This document shows, in pieces, positions 39,884 to 60,743 of a DNA stretch of 64,000 nt. The DNA is from Flavobacterium limicola (GTDB taxonomy: Bacteria; Bacteroidota; Bacteroidia; Flavobacteriales; Flavobacteriaceae). Within the stretch, counting starts at the first letter, position 1, and the number at the start of each line of letters is the position of its first letter. The DNA lies in the NCBI RefSeq assembly GCF_003634755.1, contig NZ_RBXA01000004.1, positions 1 through 64,000 of the forward strand, in the 5' to 3' direction. The notes beneath the pieces were generated by a model. That model did no database searches, was not told where the DNA came from, and saw nothing but the letters and a program-made list of their open reading frames with translations. A program made the position numbers and the translations under genes.

Positions 39884-40005
39884 TTTATTTATTTTCAAAT
39901 ATATTAAAATTTTCTTACAAATCATTAAAAGGACTTTTTATTAGCTAGATGTTTGTTTGAATAGTAATGGGAAGATTTTAGTTGTTATTACGACTTTTTA
40001 TGCGT

Positions 40006-40072
40006 GAGGGATAAAAGTGGAAATCCTTTTATAAAGCGCAGCGAAATAAAAGATTATAACGAATAGCCCGAC
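40006..40072. repeat. Dispersed palindromic repeat, copy C
   Basis: The flanks gagggataaaagtggaaatcc and aagattataacgaatagcccgac surround a short variable stem. They match copy A at 1-73 in the same orientation and copy B at 13436-13516 inverted. It lies in the 530-nt gap between the cassette-like genes and tgt. Confidence 0.6.
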
Positions 40073-40290
40073 CTTTTTAGGGCACGCCCAAAACCATTTA
40101 CTAAACGATACGTATATTTTTGAATGCTATAATTGTCTCATTTTTCTCTTAAAAAGCAGGTATATTTTAGTTGTTATCCTGATAGCTTTCGGGACACTTT
40201 TATACTTTAGAAAGTGAAAAACATTTTTTTGATGTAGATTTCAAATTAACCTATCTTTGCCAGCCGAACAATCGGGTGAAATACGTTACT
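40073..40290. promoter_or_regulatory. tgt upstream region with promoter
   Basis: TTG at 40229-40231 and TATCTTTG at 40252-40259, 20 nt apart, match the Bacteroidota promoter. The -7 box ends 31 nt before the ATG at 40291. The rest of the gap from 39884 carries repeat C and no gene. Confidence 0.7.
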
Positions 40291-41421: not shown

Positions 41422-41434
41422 AAAAAATGTTTAA

Positions 41435-41485
41435 GGTTTAAAGTTTAACGTTCCAGCGCTGACTTTAAACCTTAAACTTTAAACC
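41435..41485. repeat. Inverted repeat between tgt and the lptF/G gene
   Basis: GGTTTAAAGTTTAA (41435-41448) and TTAAACTTTAAACC (41472-41485) are perfect complements around CGTTCCAGCGCTGACTTTAAACC-like spacer sequence. The hairpin lies between two co-directional genes and lacks a T-tract. Similar AT-rich palindromes occur near 2843 and inside the riboswitch insertion near 56955-57032. Confidence 0.5.
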
Positions 41486-41496
41486 TAAACAAAAAC

Positions 41497-49202: not shown

Positions 49203-49275
49203 GACTCGATAGCTCAGTTGGTAGAGCACATCACTTTTAATGATGGGGTCCTGGGTTCGAGCCCCAGTCGGGTCA
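49203..49275 (+). tRNA. tRNA-Lys (TTT), first copy
   Basis: A 73-nt cloverleaf: acceptor GACTCGA pairs with TCGGGTC, the anticodon loop CTTTTAA holds anticodon TTT, the T arm is CTGGGTTCGAGCCCCAG, and the discriminator is A. CCA is not encoded. Followed 39 nt later by an identical second copy. Confidence 0.97.
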
Positions 49276-49314: not shown

Positions 49315-49387
49315 GACTCGATAGCTCAGTTGGTAGAGCACATCACTTTTAATGATGGGGTCCTGGGTTCGAGCCCCAGTCGGGTCA
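49315..49387 (+). tRNA. tRNA-Lys (TTT), second copy
   Basis: Identical in all 73 positions to the copy at 49203-49275, with the same anticodon TTT and discriminator A. The copies are separated by a 39-nt spacer, consistent with a recent tandem duplication or gene conversion. Confidence 0.97.
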
Positions 49388-49429: not shown

Positions 49430-49512
49430 GGCCACGTGGAGAAACGGTAGACTTGCCAGCTTGAGGGGCTGGTGCTCGCAAGGGCGTGTGGGTTCAAATC
49501 CCACCGTGGTCA
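49430..49512 (+). tRNA. tRNA-Leu (GAG)
   Basis: An 83-nt tRNA with a class II long variable arm (GTGCTCGCAAGGGCGT region). Acceptor GGCCACG pairs with CGTGGTC, the anticodon loop TTGAGGG holds GAG, and the T arm is GTGGGTTCAAATCCCAC. Discriminator A; CCA not encoded. Confidence 0.95.
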
Positions 49513-54963: not shown

Positions 54964-56793
54964 TTAATATTTAATTGTTAGAGTTAAATTATAGTTGCTA
55001 CCAGGCATTGGTCTTACCTCAACGGTTTGGTAGTTTTCATTAAATAAATTCAGTGCTTGAATTCCTATTTTATAATGGTCCAATTCCCCTATTTTGTAAT
55101 AGACACTAAGATTTGAAACCTGATATTCTTTCAATCTGTAATAATTATCCGCAGAGGTAAAAACTGCACCATTGAATAAATATTGATAATTTAAGGACCA
55201 ATTTTTATAGGAGTAATCTGCATTCACGGTCATTTTATGATACGGAACATAAATCAGTTGTTTCTGATTACTTTGATCCACAGACGAAGTATAGCCGTAT
55301 GCCAAACTGATATTAAAATTATGTCCCTTGAAATTTTTAAAATAACTTCCTGTTACCTCTACCCCTTTATTTACAACACTTGCTGTGTTAATAGGCATCC
55401 ATTGTCCTGTCTCATTAGGAATCCAACGAATCATTCCTTTGGTTTGAATATAAAAACCTGTCAATGAAAATTTCAAAGCATTGATTTTTAATTCCTGACC
55501 CAATTCCATTTGATTGGAAAGTTCCGGAATGAGTTCATGGTTACCGCTTCCTTCCCAGTATAAATCATTGAAAGAAGGCAGTCTGAAATTTTTAGATGTG
55601 TTCAATTTGATGCTGTACATTTCAAATGGCTGGTAAACTAACCCAAAAGAATATAAAAAGGGATTTCTATAATTTGTGGCAACTTCCTGTCTTACGCTTG
55701 CTTCATATTGCATAGCGGGACTTAATGTATGTTTAACTAACAGGCTTGCAGCGCCTATACTTCTTTTGGCATTATTAATTGAGGTCCCAAAACCATTAAT
55801 TTGCGTGAAATCAACAACTGAATTGACGGTGAAGTTTTTAGTTGGAGAATAATCTAAATCATATTTTATTATTTTAGTTTTGGCGCCACCTTCACTAAAA
55901 ATATCTTTATCCTTATTCTCATAATACTTATAATTTTCAGTTACATACGCTAATTTCAACTTAGAAGTGAAATCTTTATGTAATCCAACCCACTCCAGCA
56001 AATTTCTTGTGTTCAAATCATAATATTTACTCACAGAAATGGAAGCTAAAGTTCCGGAAAAATGCCGTAAACCGTCATATACCTGACTATAAAAATTAAT
56101 TTTATGATTCAAATTGATTTTATAACCAAAACTTCCATTTAAACTGGTATTGTAATAATCTCCATTTTGATTTTTTTGATTTGAATTGGGATAACCATAA
56201 TCGTTATCCGAGCTATTTCTGGAGATACTAAACTGAGAAGCAACTTTCTCATCAGAGGCAATAAGCTGATAATAATACCCTTGCGTATTAAAACTTCCAA
56301 AATTCATTCGTAAAAGATTCTGAAATTGTTTTTTAAAATGTAGCTCATTGTTCAAATGAATGCTCCCACCTATAGCTGAACTACCATAAATTCCGCTACC
56401 ACCACCAGTTCTTACAGAAACATTAGTATAACCCAAAGGGGTTATGGTATTAAAATCCGTTTGTCCCAGAAGCTGTGAATTTATGTTAATCCCATTCCAA
56501 ATCACTGCTGTTTGTGCTGCAGTTGTACCTCTGAAGGAAACAGAAGAAGTCATTCCGTTTCCATATTCTTTCAGATAGAGCAAGCTATTGTATCGCAATA
56601 AATTGGTCAATGAACTGTAATTCCTCTGAATCACAGAATCATTTAATACCTGAACCTGTAGTGTTTTTGAATATTTTTTTAAAGCGCCGTCAGTTACAAT
56701 TACTTCGTTTAAAGAAATTGCAGGTTTATTTTGAGCCAAAACACATTGGCACACACTTAAAAAACAAAATAAAAGTATTTTTTTTGTAGTCAT
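54964..56793 (-). CDS. btuB: TonB-dependent outer-membrane vitamin B12 receptor
   Basis: 609 aa from the ATG that opens MTTKKILLFCFL. A longer frame from 56889 would start inside the riboswitch and is rejected. Signal peptide to about residue 22; the plug domain (NEVIVTDGALKKYSKTLQ, YGNGMTSSVSFRGTTAAQTAVIWNGI, GSGIYGSSAIGGSIHLNN) fits BtuB, and the barrel ends in a typical C-terminal NLTLTIKY. It takes up cobalamin across the outer membrane using TonB energy. Expression is controlled by the cobalamin riboswitch just upstream. Confidence 0.95.
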   Translation of the reverse strand: MTTKKILLFCFLSVCQCVLAQNKPAISLNEVIVTDGALKKYSKTLQVQVLNDSVIQRNYSSLTNLLRYNSLLYLKEYGNGMTSSVSFRGTTAAQTAVIWNGININSQLLGQTDFNTITPLGYTNVSVRTGGGSGIYGSSAIGGSIHLNNELHFKKQFQNLLRMNFGSFNTQGYYYQLIASDEKVASQFSISRNSSDNDYGYPNSNQKNQNGDYYNTSLNGSFGYKINLNHKINFYSQVYDGLRHFSGTLASISVSKYYDLNTRNLLEWVGLHKDFTSKLKLAYVTENYKYYENKDKDIFSEGGAKTKIIKYDLDYSPTKNFTVNSVVDFTQINGFGTSINNAKRSIGAASLLVKHTLSPAMQYEASVRQEVATNYRNPFLYSFGLVYQPFEMYSIKLNTSKNFRLPSFNDLYWEGSGNHELIPELSNQMELGQELKINALKFSLTGFYIQTKGMIRWIPNETGQWMPINTASVVNKGVEVTGSYFKNFKGHNFNISLAYGYTSSVDQSNQKQLIYVPYHKMTVNADYSYKNWSLNYQYLFNGAVFTSADNYYRLKEYQVSNLSVYYKIGELDHYKIGIQALNLFNENYQTVEVRPMPGSNYNLTLTIKY

Positions 56794-56837
56794 AATTTCT
56801 GAACTCTTTTTCCCGAGAGTTCGATATTTGTTACGTA

Positions 56838-57095
56838 AAAAGGCAGGTCTCCTGGCTTGCGTCTTGTTGTTAACCTTCCCATCCAACAAGCGGACAGTGG
56901 TTTTGTAGATAACAACAAGCTTATTAGCTTACAGTTGCGGGTACAGCCCAGGATTTTGATTTAGAAATTAGAAATTTTGACTTAAGATTTATTTAAAAAC
57001 CTGTAATCTATAATCTAATATCTACAATCAGTCACCTGATTCCCTTTTAATGCTGAATTGAAAAACAAAAACAGCAACCTCAATACGGTGGCAAA
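56838..57095 (-). promoter_or_regulatory. Cobalamin (B12) riboswitch with a large insertion
   Basis: Read on the minus strand the leader contains GCCACCGT, GAGGTTG, TTAAAAGGGAATCAGGTG, CCTGGGCTGTACCCGCAACTGTAAGC, CCACTGTCCGCTTG and the B12 box CAAGCCAGGAGACCTGCC at 56839-56856. These are the conserved elements of the class. Between CAGGTG (57033-57038) and CCTGGGCTG (56943-56951), where the loop is normally a few nucleotides, about 78 nt of AT-rich palindromic sequence (56955-57032) is inserted. It would turn off btuB-btuG when cobalamin is abundant. Confidence 0.95.
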
Positions 57096-57123
57096 GATAG
57101 CGCTTTAATCAACTAAAAATCAA
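57092..57123 (-). promoter_or_regulatory. Promoter of the btuB riboswitch transcript
   Basis: On the minus strand, TTG at 57123-57121 and TATCTTTG at 57099-57092 are 21 nt apart, the Bacteroidota spacing. The box lies directly before the riboswitch, so btuB-btuG can be transcribed apart from the cob genes. Confidence 0.7.
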
Positions 57124-57195: not shown

Positions 57196-57720
57196 TTACC
57201 ATTCTATTTTCAGTACTGAGCCATAATCGACTTTATTTTGAAAAGCATCTTTTAACGGTAAGCTTGCTATTTTGCATAAGACACTTCGAATTACTCCTGC
57301 ATGGGCAACAATAACAACTGGTTTTAAAGTATCTTTTTGAAATTCGTTCGTCATAAAGTCAACAACTCGATTGTATAAATCAACAAATGACTCACCGTTA
57401 GGAACCCGAACGTTTACAAAATCATTCATCCAAGGTGTAAAATCATTCACAGGAATGTCATCCCAATTTTTCAATTCCCAATTCCCAAAATTCATCTCCA
57501 TCAAGCGATGATCTGTAATTACAGGCGTTGTTGCTATATAATTAGCTAATTGTGTACAACGAATCAATGGACTAGAGAACACCTTTGCCTGGTCAGGAAT
57601 TTGCGCTTTTATAGTTTCAAAATGTTGCAGATAAGGTTCCAAAATCCCCACATCTGATTGTCCATAACAAATGCCTTTTTCACAAACCGTTTCGGTATGA
57701 CGCACTAAATAAATTTCCAT
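57196..57720 (-). CDS. cobC: Alpha-ribazole phosphatase (CobC-type histidine phosphatase)
   Basis: Dephosphorylates alpha-ribazole-phosphate, or the 5'-phosphate of cobalamin, late in the lower-ligand pathway. 174 aa from the ATG opening MEIYLVRHTE; an ATG at 57780 adds 20 residues and overlaps cobS further. The phosphoglycerate mutase-like signature is LVRHTETVCEKGICYGQSDV, with SSPLIRCTQLA and a later VIVAHAGVIR holding the second catalytic His. It overlaps cobS by 16 nt, so it is in the cob operon. Confidence 0.9.
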   Translation of the reverse strand: MEIYLVRHTETVCEKGICYGQSDVGILEPYLQHFETIKAQIPDQAKVFSSPLIRCTQLANYIATTPVITDHRLMEMNFGNWELKNWDDIPVNDFTPWMNDFVNVRVPNGESFVDLYNRVVDFMTNEFQKDTLKPVVIVAHAGVIRSVLCKIASLPLKDAFQNKVDYGSVLKIEW

Positions 57721-58502
57721 AAAGCTAGTATTGATATATAAAATACGACTTCGCAAACCTGTTGTGCAGCTCCCAGACAATCTCCGGTATACCCATCAAT
57801 CCATTTATAAAAATAACGAGCCAGAAAAAATCGAGTTAAAAAAACGGGTATTAAAACCAATACTATTTGCCATTGAAAAAAAGACAATATAACGAGTGGC
57901 AATAACCCAAAAGATAAGGAACCGACTACTTCTTGCCAAGCATACGTTTTTGCGATAGGTTTACTTTTGCTTGTTTCATCATCTCTGGAATAGGAATAAG
58001 TGAATATAATGGTGATTGCCACAAAACGACTTACTGATTGTGCCGCAACAAATAAAAGAAAAATCGTCAATGTAGCATTAGGAGTCAGCATCGAGGATTC
58101 AGTAATCATCTCGCTTATTACTTTAAACTTAAGTACTAAAAGCAGTAAAATACCAATTGCTCCATACGCTCCAATAGCGCTGTCTTTCATTATCAAAAGA
58201 ATTCTTTCTTTGGTCCAACCTCCACCAAAACCATCACAAACATCAGCAAATCCATCTTCATGAAAGGCACCAGTAGTTAGAATTCCAGCAATAATTCCCA
58301 AAATAACGGCTGTTTCAGTTTCTAAAAATAACGAAGCCAGATAGTAGGCTACAAATGAAATAGTACCAACTATCCAACCAATCAGCGGAAAGTAACGCGT
58401 TGCTTTGTTTAAATAATCAGGATTGTGGTCTATGTTTTTAGGACACGGAATTCGGGTGTAAAACATCAAGGCTGTAAAAAACAGGTGTATTTCTCTTTTC
58501 AT
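57705..58502 (-). CDS. cobS: Adenosylcobinamide-GDP ribazoletransferase (cobalamin synthase)
   Basis: Joins adenosylcobinamide-GDP to alpha-ribazole (phosphate), completing the nucleotide loop at the membrane. 265 aa with several membrane helices. The catalytic Asp-rich motif is HEDGFADVCDGFGGGWTKER, followed by GAYGAIGILLLLVLKF, characteristic of CobS. It has the next gene overlapping by 16 nt and the bluB-cobT fusion 57 nt upstream. Confidence 0.95.
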   Translation of the reverse strand: MKREIHLFFTALMFYTRIPCPKNIDHNPDYLNKATRYFPLIGWIVGTISFVAYYLASLFLETETAVILGIIAGILTTGAFHEDGFADVCDGFGGGWTKERILLIMKDSAIGAYGAIGILLLLVLKFKVISEMITESSMLTPNATLTIFLLFVAAQSVSRFVAITIIFTYSYSRDDETSKSKPIAKTYAWQEVVGSLSFGLLPLVILSFFQWQIVLVLIPVFLTRFFLARYFYKWIDGYTGDCLGAAQQVCEVVFYISILALWKFI

Positions 58503-58559: not shown

Positions 58560-60236
58560 TTACTCTTGATCGACACCGGCACTTTCGAAACTTGCCATTT
58601 TATTCAAAAAAACAACCGCTGATTGAATTATAGGAAAGGCGACAGCACAACCAGTTCCTTCGCCTAAACGCAAATCTAATTGTAAAATAGGTTGTACTCC
58701 CAGATAATCCAACAATTTTCGGTGTGCTTGCTCTGCAGAACAATGACAAAAAATTGCATTTTTTTTGACTCCAGGATTTATTTTAAAGGCTATCAAATAC
58801 GCTACACTACAAATGAAACCATCAACCAGAATAAGCATATTGCTTTGATAGGCAGATAACATTCCAGCTGCCATCTGCAGAATTTCAAACCCTCCAAAAT
58901 GAGCCAGTTTTGAATTTAAATCGGGCTCTCCTGAATAATTTTCAATTGCTTTTTTTAGAATTTCATTTTTTTTAATTAATTTTTTATCGCCAACTCCTGT
59001 TCCCCTACCCACACAATCCGCAATAGATAATCCAGTGATTACGCTCATTAAAACAGAGGCTGTAGCAGTATTTCCTATACCCATTTCTCCAAAACCTATG
59101 CAATTGCTACCTTTTTTTGCAAGCACAGCAACGATTTCTTTTCCTTTACTAAAACACAATTGCAATTCCGTTTGGCTCATTGCCGGACCATGCAAGAACG
59201 ATTGTGTTCCTTTTCCAATTTTTGCAGAAATCAGATTAGCATTTGTTGGAAAATCATAATTAACACCCGCATCAACAATAGATAACGCAATACCATGCTG
59301 TTTACAGAACACATTTATAGCTGCTCCACCTTCCAGAAAATTTAGCACCATTTGTCGCGTTACGTCTTGCGGATAAGCGCTTACACCATGATTTGCAATT
59401 CCGTGATCAGCGGCAAAGGTCACTATGTTTGGGTTTATTATTTGGGGTTCTAAACTTTGAAAAACTTCCCCAATTTGTTTGGCTATAGATTCTAGTACTC
59501 CCAAAGAGCCTTTTGGTTTTGACTTATGATCAATTTTATATTGTAATGCATTTGAAAAATCAGTGGAAACGATTTGATCATTAAAATTCGGAATTTCCAT
59601 TTTATAATGGGATAAATTAGTGATTTCTGTCACCGAAGGCACCTCCGATTTTTGCTTCCAATTTAATTGTTGCAACATGGGCTGGTTTTCATAATTTGTA
59701 GCGGGTTTGCCCACACAGAAATATCCCAAAGGCTCCATGTAATCCGGAAACCCTAATAAATGCTTGAACTTATAATAGTTCAAAATAGAAACCCAACCCA
59801 TCGAATATCCTTGTTCAGTAAGCGACAGCCAAATATTTTGCGCCGCACAAACCGAACTAAACTTCACGGCTTCATTGCTTCCTACGGTTCCAATTGTGAA
59901 ATTATTGAGTACCGAACGATCGTAACAAATCACTAATCCAAGTGGCGCTTCCTCAATAGCTTCTAATTTCAAGGATTTGTAACTTGCTTTTTGATCTTCA
60001 TTATCGGTCAGGTTTACGGCTTTTTTATCATATTCCAAAAATAATTCTTTGACCGCTGACTTAATTTCAGCTGACTTAATGGTATAAAATCTTGTCGCAT
60101 CCGTTAATCCTACTGAGGGAGCCCAATGTCCGGCTTGAAGTGCTTTTTTAATGACAGCATCTGGGACTTCATCATTTGTAAAATGACGGGTATCACGACG
60201 GGATTTTATAATTTCATCTAAATAAGTCATTTGCAA
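58560..60236 (-). CDS. Fusion of BluB (dimethylbenzimidazole synthase) and CobT
   Basis: 558 aa in one unbroken frame. Residues 1 to about 215 are a BluB-type flavin-dependent nitroreductase-fold enzyme that makes 5,6-dimethylbenzimidazole: KSRRDTRHFTNDEVPD, HWAPSVGLTDATRF, and NYENQPMLQQLNW at the end. Residues about 220-558 are nicotinate-nucleotide-dimethylbenzimidazole phosphoribosyltransferase: GEMGIGNTATASVL and LRLGEGTGCAVAFPI with the catalytic Glu. The fusion would channel DMB into alpha-ribazole phosphate. It is joined to cobU with no gap. Confidence 0.93.
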   Translation of the reverse strand: MQMTYLDEIIKSRRDTRHFTNDEVPDAVIKKALQAGHWAPSVGLTDATRFYTIKSAEIKSAVKELFLEYDKKAVNLTDNEDQKASYKSLKLEAIEEAPLGLVICYDRSVLNNFTIGTVGSNEAVKFSSVCAAQNIWLSLTEQGYSMGWVSILNYYKFKHLLGFPDYMEPLGYFCVGKPATNYENQPMLQQLNWKQKSEVPSVTEITNLSHYKMEIPNFNDQIVSTDFSNALQYKIDHKSKPKGSLGVLESIAKQIGEVFQSLEPQIINPNIVTFAADHGIANHGVSAYPQDVTRQMVLNFLEGGAAINVFCKQHGIALSIVDAGVNYDFPTNANLISAKIGKGTQSFLHGPAMSQTELQLCFSKGKEIVAVLAKKGSNCIGFGEMGIGNTATASVLMSVITGLSIADCVGRGTGVGDKKLIKKNEILKKAIENYSGEPDLNSKLAHFGGFEILQMAAGMLSAYQSNMLILVDGFICSVAYLIAFKINPGVKKNAIFCHCSAEQAHRKLLDYLGVQPILQLDLRLGEGTGCAVAFPIIQSAVVFLNKMASFESAGVDQE

Positions 60237-60743
60237 TTATTTGATTTTAACTGGAATTCCGGAGACCATCAACACAACATTATCGGCAGTTGCAGCTAAA
60301 TATTGGTTCATCCAACCTTGTAATTCGGTAAATTTCCTACCAATGTGAGTATCCGCATGAACGCCCATCCCTATTTCATTGGTTACAATAATTATTGTCG
60401 CATTTTCATGATTGACTATCGCATCAAATTCAGCTTTAGCTTGTTCTAAGCACAAGCGAACATCATTTTTAGTATCTACAAAAAAGTTCGTTAACCAAAG
60501 CGTAACGCAATCGATAATGGCTACTTCCCCCGAAAAATTAATTTCACTCAAGTGTTTTTCTTTTTCGATATTAATCCATCGTTCGTCACGGTCTTTTTGA
60601 TGGCGATCGATTCTCTTTTGGAAATCATCATCCCATTTTCGGGCTGTAGCCACATACATTGGTTTATCCGACAATCCTTTTGCTAAATTTTCGGCATAGC
60701 TACTCTTACCGGAGCGTTCCCCGCCAGTTATTAAATATATCAT
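60237..60743 (-). CDS. cobU: Adenosylcobinamide kinase / adenosylcobinamide-phosphate guanylyltransferase
   Basis: 168 aa bifunctional enzyme that phosphorylates cobinamide and transfers GMP. The P-loop is TGGERSGKSSYAENL, with YVATARKWDDDFQKRIDRHQ containing the guanylylated His region, RWINIEKEKHL and VTNEIGMGVHADTHIGRKF. The length is typical. It directly precedes the bluB-cobT fusion (stop and start adjacent) and follows a cysteine-rich gene by 2 nt. Confidence 0.96.
   Translation of the reverse strand: MIYLITGGERSGKSSYAENLAKGLSDKPMYVATARKWDDDFQKRIDRHQKDRDERWINIEKEKHLSEINFSGEVAIIDCVTLWLTNFFVDTKNDVRLCLEQAKAEFDAIVNHENATIIIVTNEIGMGVHADTHIGRKFTELQGWMNQYLAATADNVVLMVSGIPVKIK

Follow-up and report, generated by a model that had tools for sequence, protein, structure and literature searches.

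A 7-nt-periodic hairpin insert in the L4 loop of a cobalamin riboswitch of Flavobacterium limicola

A cobalamin riboswitch of Flavobacterium limicola carries a long palindromic sequence within a hairpin loop of its core that is normally very short, which raises the questions of what this sequence is, where it came from and whether the RNA could still switch around it. We used covariance models, fold prediction and comparison with related genomes to address these questions. Positions refer to the window, the whole stretch of DNA analysed (64,000 nucleotides, the first of contig NZ_RBXA01000004.1).

The riboswitch and its locus

The riboswitch lies on the minus strand at 57097-56825, where cmscan matched all of the cobalamin model RF00174 (positions 1-189) with 96.8 bits (E 6.9e-23), above the gathering threshold of 31.5 bits. 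It was the single RF00174 match across the whole 3.3-Mb genome, and the region had no match in a plasmid collection. All consensus elements are present and the gene context is that of the class. Upstream, on the same strand, are cobU (60237-60743; NF004469), a bluB-cobT fusion in a single frame (58560-60236; TIGR02476 and TIGR03160), cobS (adenosylcobinamide-GDP ribazoletransferase, 57705-58502; NF001277) and, directly before the riboswitch, cobC (alpha-ribazole phosphatase, 57196-57720; TIGR03162), all matched above the model cut-offs. The fusion joins a BluB (5,6-dimethylbenzimidazole synthase) domain and CobT in one gene. Downstream is the probable regulated gene (54964-56793, minus strand, ATG at 56793), a TonB-dependent receptor with Pfam barrel and plug domains, which we call only btuB-like because its best NCBIfam match, TIGR01779 (TonB-B12, E 2e-34), falls under the model cut-off. 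The order cobS, cobC, riboswitch, receptor is shared by many congeners, and a cobalamin riboswitch in an equivalent context is expressed in F. psychrophilum (PMC9723704). Judged by its sequence, the F. limicola riboswitch is an ordinary member of class I (the adenosylcobalamin type). Other RNA genes in the window include two Flavo-1 RNAs (RF01705; 13441-13518, minus, and 39996-40077, plus) and identical tandem tRNA genes (49203-49275 and 49315-49387, plus) followed by a third tRNA gene (49430-49512). Together with L4 inserts of the kind described below in named species of the genus, the Flavo-1 RNAs assign the window to Flavobacterium.

The start of the RF00174 match is overlapped by a probable promoter -7 box, TATCTTTG (57090-57097, minus strand, approximate to a base or two), with a TTG upstream at 21-nt spacing. 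The box follows the published flavobacterial consensus TAnnTTTG (PMC9723704), which recurs close to the start of the model match in 73 of 81 congeneric riboswitches (approximately 0.026 expected per slot). The riboswitch probably has a promoter of its own within the cob cluster. At the other end, a P13-like hairpin, GAACUCU-CGGGAAAA-AGAGUUC (approximately 56797-56823, minus strand), is predicted directly 5' of the AUG. Class I cobalamin riboswitches act through a kissing loop between L5 and L13. In the predicted fold, L5 carries CCCG and the loop of the pre-AUG hairpin carries CGGG; both motifs are conserved among congeners, some of which have CGCG at both positions, and the pair fits this mechanism. 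Binding of B12 would favor the kissing loop, and since this would stabilize the hairpin before the AUG, initiation would be hindered and translation of the btuB-like receptor probably repressed. The complementary loops and the hairpin position suggest such kissing-loop switching and translational control in F. limicola. The promoter box, the kissing-loop complement and the start-codon hairpin, i.e., the whole platform, are intact in the sequence.

An insert at the tip of P4

The alignment and fold place the P4 helix at 57035-57039 (5' strand, UCAGG) and 56948-56952 (3' strand, CCUGG), both on the minus strand. In the RF00174 alignment, the extra nucleotides form a single insertion in the P4 loop. 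The region from GGGAA to GCUG spans 92 nt here and 16-18 nt in most congeners, giving an insert of about 75 nt in L4 (56957-57032, minus strand). The flanks of the T-loop are kept: GGUG (57036-57033) and AAAUCC (56956-56951), which border the insert, are about 1 nt apart in the class norm and have about 75 nt more between them in this RNA. The preliminary description, made from the sequence alone, had reported a palindromic insertion of roughly 78 nt in the core hairpin loop at 56955-57032 and had proposed a covariance-model search; that search confirmed the insertion, with the full-length match and one block of extra sequence, and moved one boundary by two bases.

On the transcribed strand, P4 with the insert has a predicted folding energy of -23.2 kcal/mol (z = -4.0), and none of 200 shuffled sequences was as stable; folded as single-stranded DNA, the same sequence was unremarkable (z = -1.55). 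The insert is therefore predicted, from the fold, to form an imperfect, 7-nt-periodic hairpin on top of P4, inside the T-loop. We also considered a transcription terminator in the L4 loop and rejected it, as the sequence has no U-run 3' of the hairpin.

An interrupted L4 is known from the class: Barrick and Breaker (2007; PMC2258182) noted that a helix sometimes breaks up this T-loop. The F. limicola riboswitch shares this property and differs in the helix itself, which at about 75 nt is long, and which is AT-rich and periodic at 7 nt. L4 is a published variable site, so the insertion, though real, is not a new kind of insertion.

Recurrence and heptad composition of the inserts

We compared L4 among 68 riboswitches from the F. 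limicola genome and 54 congeners, in which genomes were sampled independently of loop length. The L4 region measured 16-18 nt in 47 and 25-92 nt in the other 21, which come from 21 different genomes; one further riboswitch outside this set could not be parsed and has a normal L4 by eye. Extended loops retain the GGUG and AAAUCC flanks of the T-loop. The preliminary description had reasoned that a single loop length carried by all related genomes would make the feature an ordinary subclass. The spread from 25 to 92 nt, beside loops of 16-18 nt, is not such a uniform length, and we rejected a conserved long-loop subclass on this ground. On a tree of the downstream receptor, BtuB (34 rows, 6 of them from genomes picked for a long riboswitch), the L4 state requires eight changes, at least four of which are forced by well-supported branches.

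A scan of GTDB extended the comparison. Among the matches listed, L4 helices were found in Alphaproteobacteria and other groups with flanks of a similar kind to those in Flavobacterium; these helices are mostly about 36 nt and GC-rich, without a 7-nt period. Among the same matches, a MAG contig titled Rhizobium sp. (L237) has an AT-rich heptad insert of the Flavobacterium type in L4, although its bin or title may be wrong. Some congeners carry similar inserts at a second site, in the terminal hairpin flanked by CCACUGU and AUGGGAAGG, which we label P11. The second-site heptad inserts are 45-75 nt long (L113, L123, L129, L139, L152 and others) and sometimes occur alongside an L4 insert.

Close relatives show how the insert changes. 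In G215, the closest of the genomes found, whose receptor is 98% identical, the riboswitch outside the insert is nearly identical to that of F. limicola, and the same insert has six aligned columns fewer on one arm and seven fewer on the other. Likewise, F. ranwuense has 7 nt fewer on each arm than related species. Heptad changes that are paired in this way suggest one of two routes: template switching from one arm to the other, or slippage with subsequent selection for pairing. From them we infer how the insert grows: the helix probably lengthens and shortens by 7 nt on both arms through one of these two routes.

Since L4 takes part in a tertiary contact of the core, the insertion might have broken the riboswitch, leaving it to decay. 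We consider this very improbable, given that the core scores as it does, the platform elements are intact, the G215 core is nearly identical despite a differing insert, and inserts recur across many species. The earlier suggestion that the core may tolerate the insertion has instead gained ground from the published variability of the site, the intact flanks and platform, and the extension of about one-third of the riboswitches measured in the genus.

The inserts have a common composition. Among 26 Flavobacterium L4 inserts, identity at a lag of 7 nt was 0.523, compared with 0.322 for dinucleotide shuffles (z 16), and the signal recurred at lags of 14 and 21; seven second-site inserts had the same periodicity (z 9), although these genus-wide z values overstate the evidence because related species are not independent. 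The F. limicola insert itself has a lag-7 identity of 0.55, against 0.33 in shuffles (z 4.3). In the Flavobacterium inserts, GATT units fall in the 5' half over the 3' half by 69:1, and AATC units fall in the 3' half over the 5' half by 66:3, an inverted arrangement that allows the repeats to fold back. Strict GAT/ATC heptad pairs occur on both arms in only 11 of 30 inserts (about one-third to one-half). This heptad composition of the L4 inserts looks undescribed.

The hairpin layout is regular, and the inserts of most species fold better than shuffled sequences, with a mean z of -2.7 and values below -2 in 21 of 30; this could mean that the hairpin was recruited for a function of its own, as a protein or RNase site or as a modulator of switching, e.g., one stabilizing the L4-L6 T-loop contact. 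Folding better than shuffles is, however, expected of any inverted repeat. Sequence and length vary widely between species, the inserted state is repeatedly gained and lost, and RNAalifold found zero compensatory double changes among six orthologous inserts. Folding had no strand bias in the Flavobacterium inserts, nor in the GC-rich helices chosen as a positive control, so this comparison does not separate selection on the RNA from a palindrome in the DNA. We regard a recruited function as unlikely, and the separate RNase or protein site offered in the preliminary description found no support, as the inserts differ freely in sequence and length from species to species and the extended state comes and goes.

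Dispersed repeats and the origin of the hairpin

Repeats of this type are not confined to the riboswitch. Genome pattern searches and 464 kb of sampled genome DNA were used to count heptads. The pattern GATTN3GATTN3GATT has 72 matches in the F. limicola genome, whereas its reverse has 2 and a version with 8-nt spacing has 11. Sequences matching the L4 insert of one congener (G007) occur in 54 of 81 genomes, often at several places in each. Of the 11 distinct AATC-heptad arrays in the 464 kb, five stop 2-14 nt short of the ATG of a frame of at least 100 codons (L311:12277, L311:17718, L321:1302, L312 at offset 3169 and L308 at offset 18519, the last two on the minus strand), an arrangement reminiscent of Beggiatoaceae, where TAACTGA repeats precede start codons (PMC4679880). 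Within the window, the preliminary description had likened the insert to two intergenic palindromes (2843-2892 and 41435-41485). The likeness held for architecture, i.e., AT-rich inverted repeats with 7-nt self-similarity (lag-7 z of 2.9 and 4.3, respectively), but did not extend to sequence identity. The second of these lies in a near-perfect 7-nt-periodic palindrome of TTTAAGG/TTTAAAG units (41426-41489), unlike the unit of the riboswitch insert.

Heptanucleotide repeats are known from cyanobacteria, Xanthomonas (GGGAATC) and Beggiatoaceae (TAACTGA), and DNA polymerase slippage has been proposed to account for their abundance (PMC4692102; PMC4679880). The Flavobacterium repeats resemble them in having a 7-nt unit, a mostly intergenic location and variable length, but the units are degenerate (GATTNNN/NNNAATC) and often inverted, which lets them pair with each other, and one of the repeats sits within the loop of a riboswitch. 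They also share with REP elements their shortness, multiple copies and often palindromic form. In contrast to REP elements, the copies are degenerate and many consist of one arm, and nothing close to the F. limicola insert was found elsewhere in its genome (best other match E = 0.08), so that it lacks the several highly similar copies per genome that define a REP element; some congener inserts do have similar copies.

These comparisons bear on whether the hairpin arose when a mobile palindromic element of REP or MITE type placed a copy in L4 as a unit. In favor of this, some congener inserts are at least 90% identical over 35-50 nt to other loci in several genomes, and many loops are either normal or long. 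The missing close copy in F. limicola, the intermediate loop lengths of 25-50 nt and the heptad length changes on both arms speak against such an event, which we judge improbable. A broader possibility, which we put forward tentatively, is that a genus-wide family of degenerate GATT/AATC heptads colonizes RNA leaders, repeatedly entering or growing in two B12-riboswitch loops as hairpins and standing as single arms immediately before start codons, with the loops as landing sites for the spreading repeat.

Our favored explanation, which is probably correct, is an ordinary riboswitch with a repeat-derived passenger hairpin on its tolerant L4 loop, built from degenerate GATT/AATC heptads. The helix of about 75 nt would project from the T-loop at its tip, and since this tip accepts helices, the aptamer core could fold around it. 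The helix would consist of heptad inverted repeats of the type dispersed through Flavobacterium genomes. For F. limicola, descent from the dispersed family is suggested by the repeat pattern and by canonical relatives, as the insert is degenerate and without a close copy in its own genome. The insert would persist because a self-folding sequence at the L4 tip causes little harm. We infer a near-neutral passenger hairpin under a weak requirement to self-fold, because sequence and length are free, the state flips between species, and compensatory changes were not seen among the orthologous inserts.

We found no description of heptad or palindromic repeats of this dispersed type in Flavobacterium, including the string GATTAACGATT, in the literature searched, which consisted mostly of papers available without subscription. 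The L4 loop may illustrate how a structured regulatory RNA gains a peripheral domain: a loop that tolerates helices is repeatedly filled by genomic repeat DNA, and its length shifts quickly between close species.
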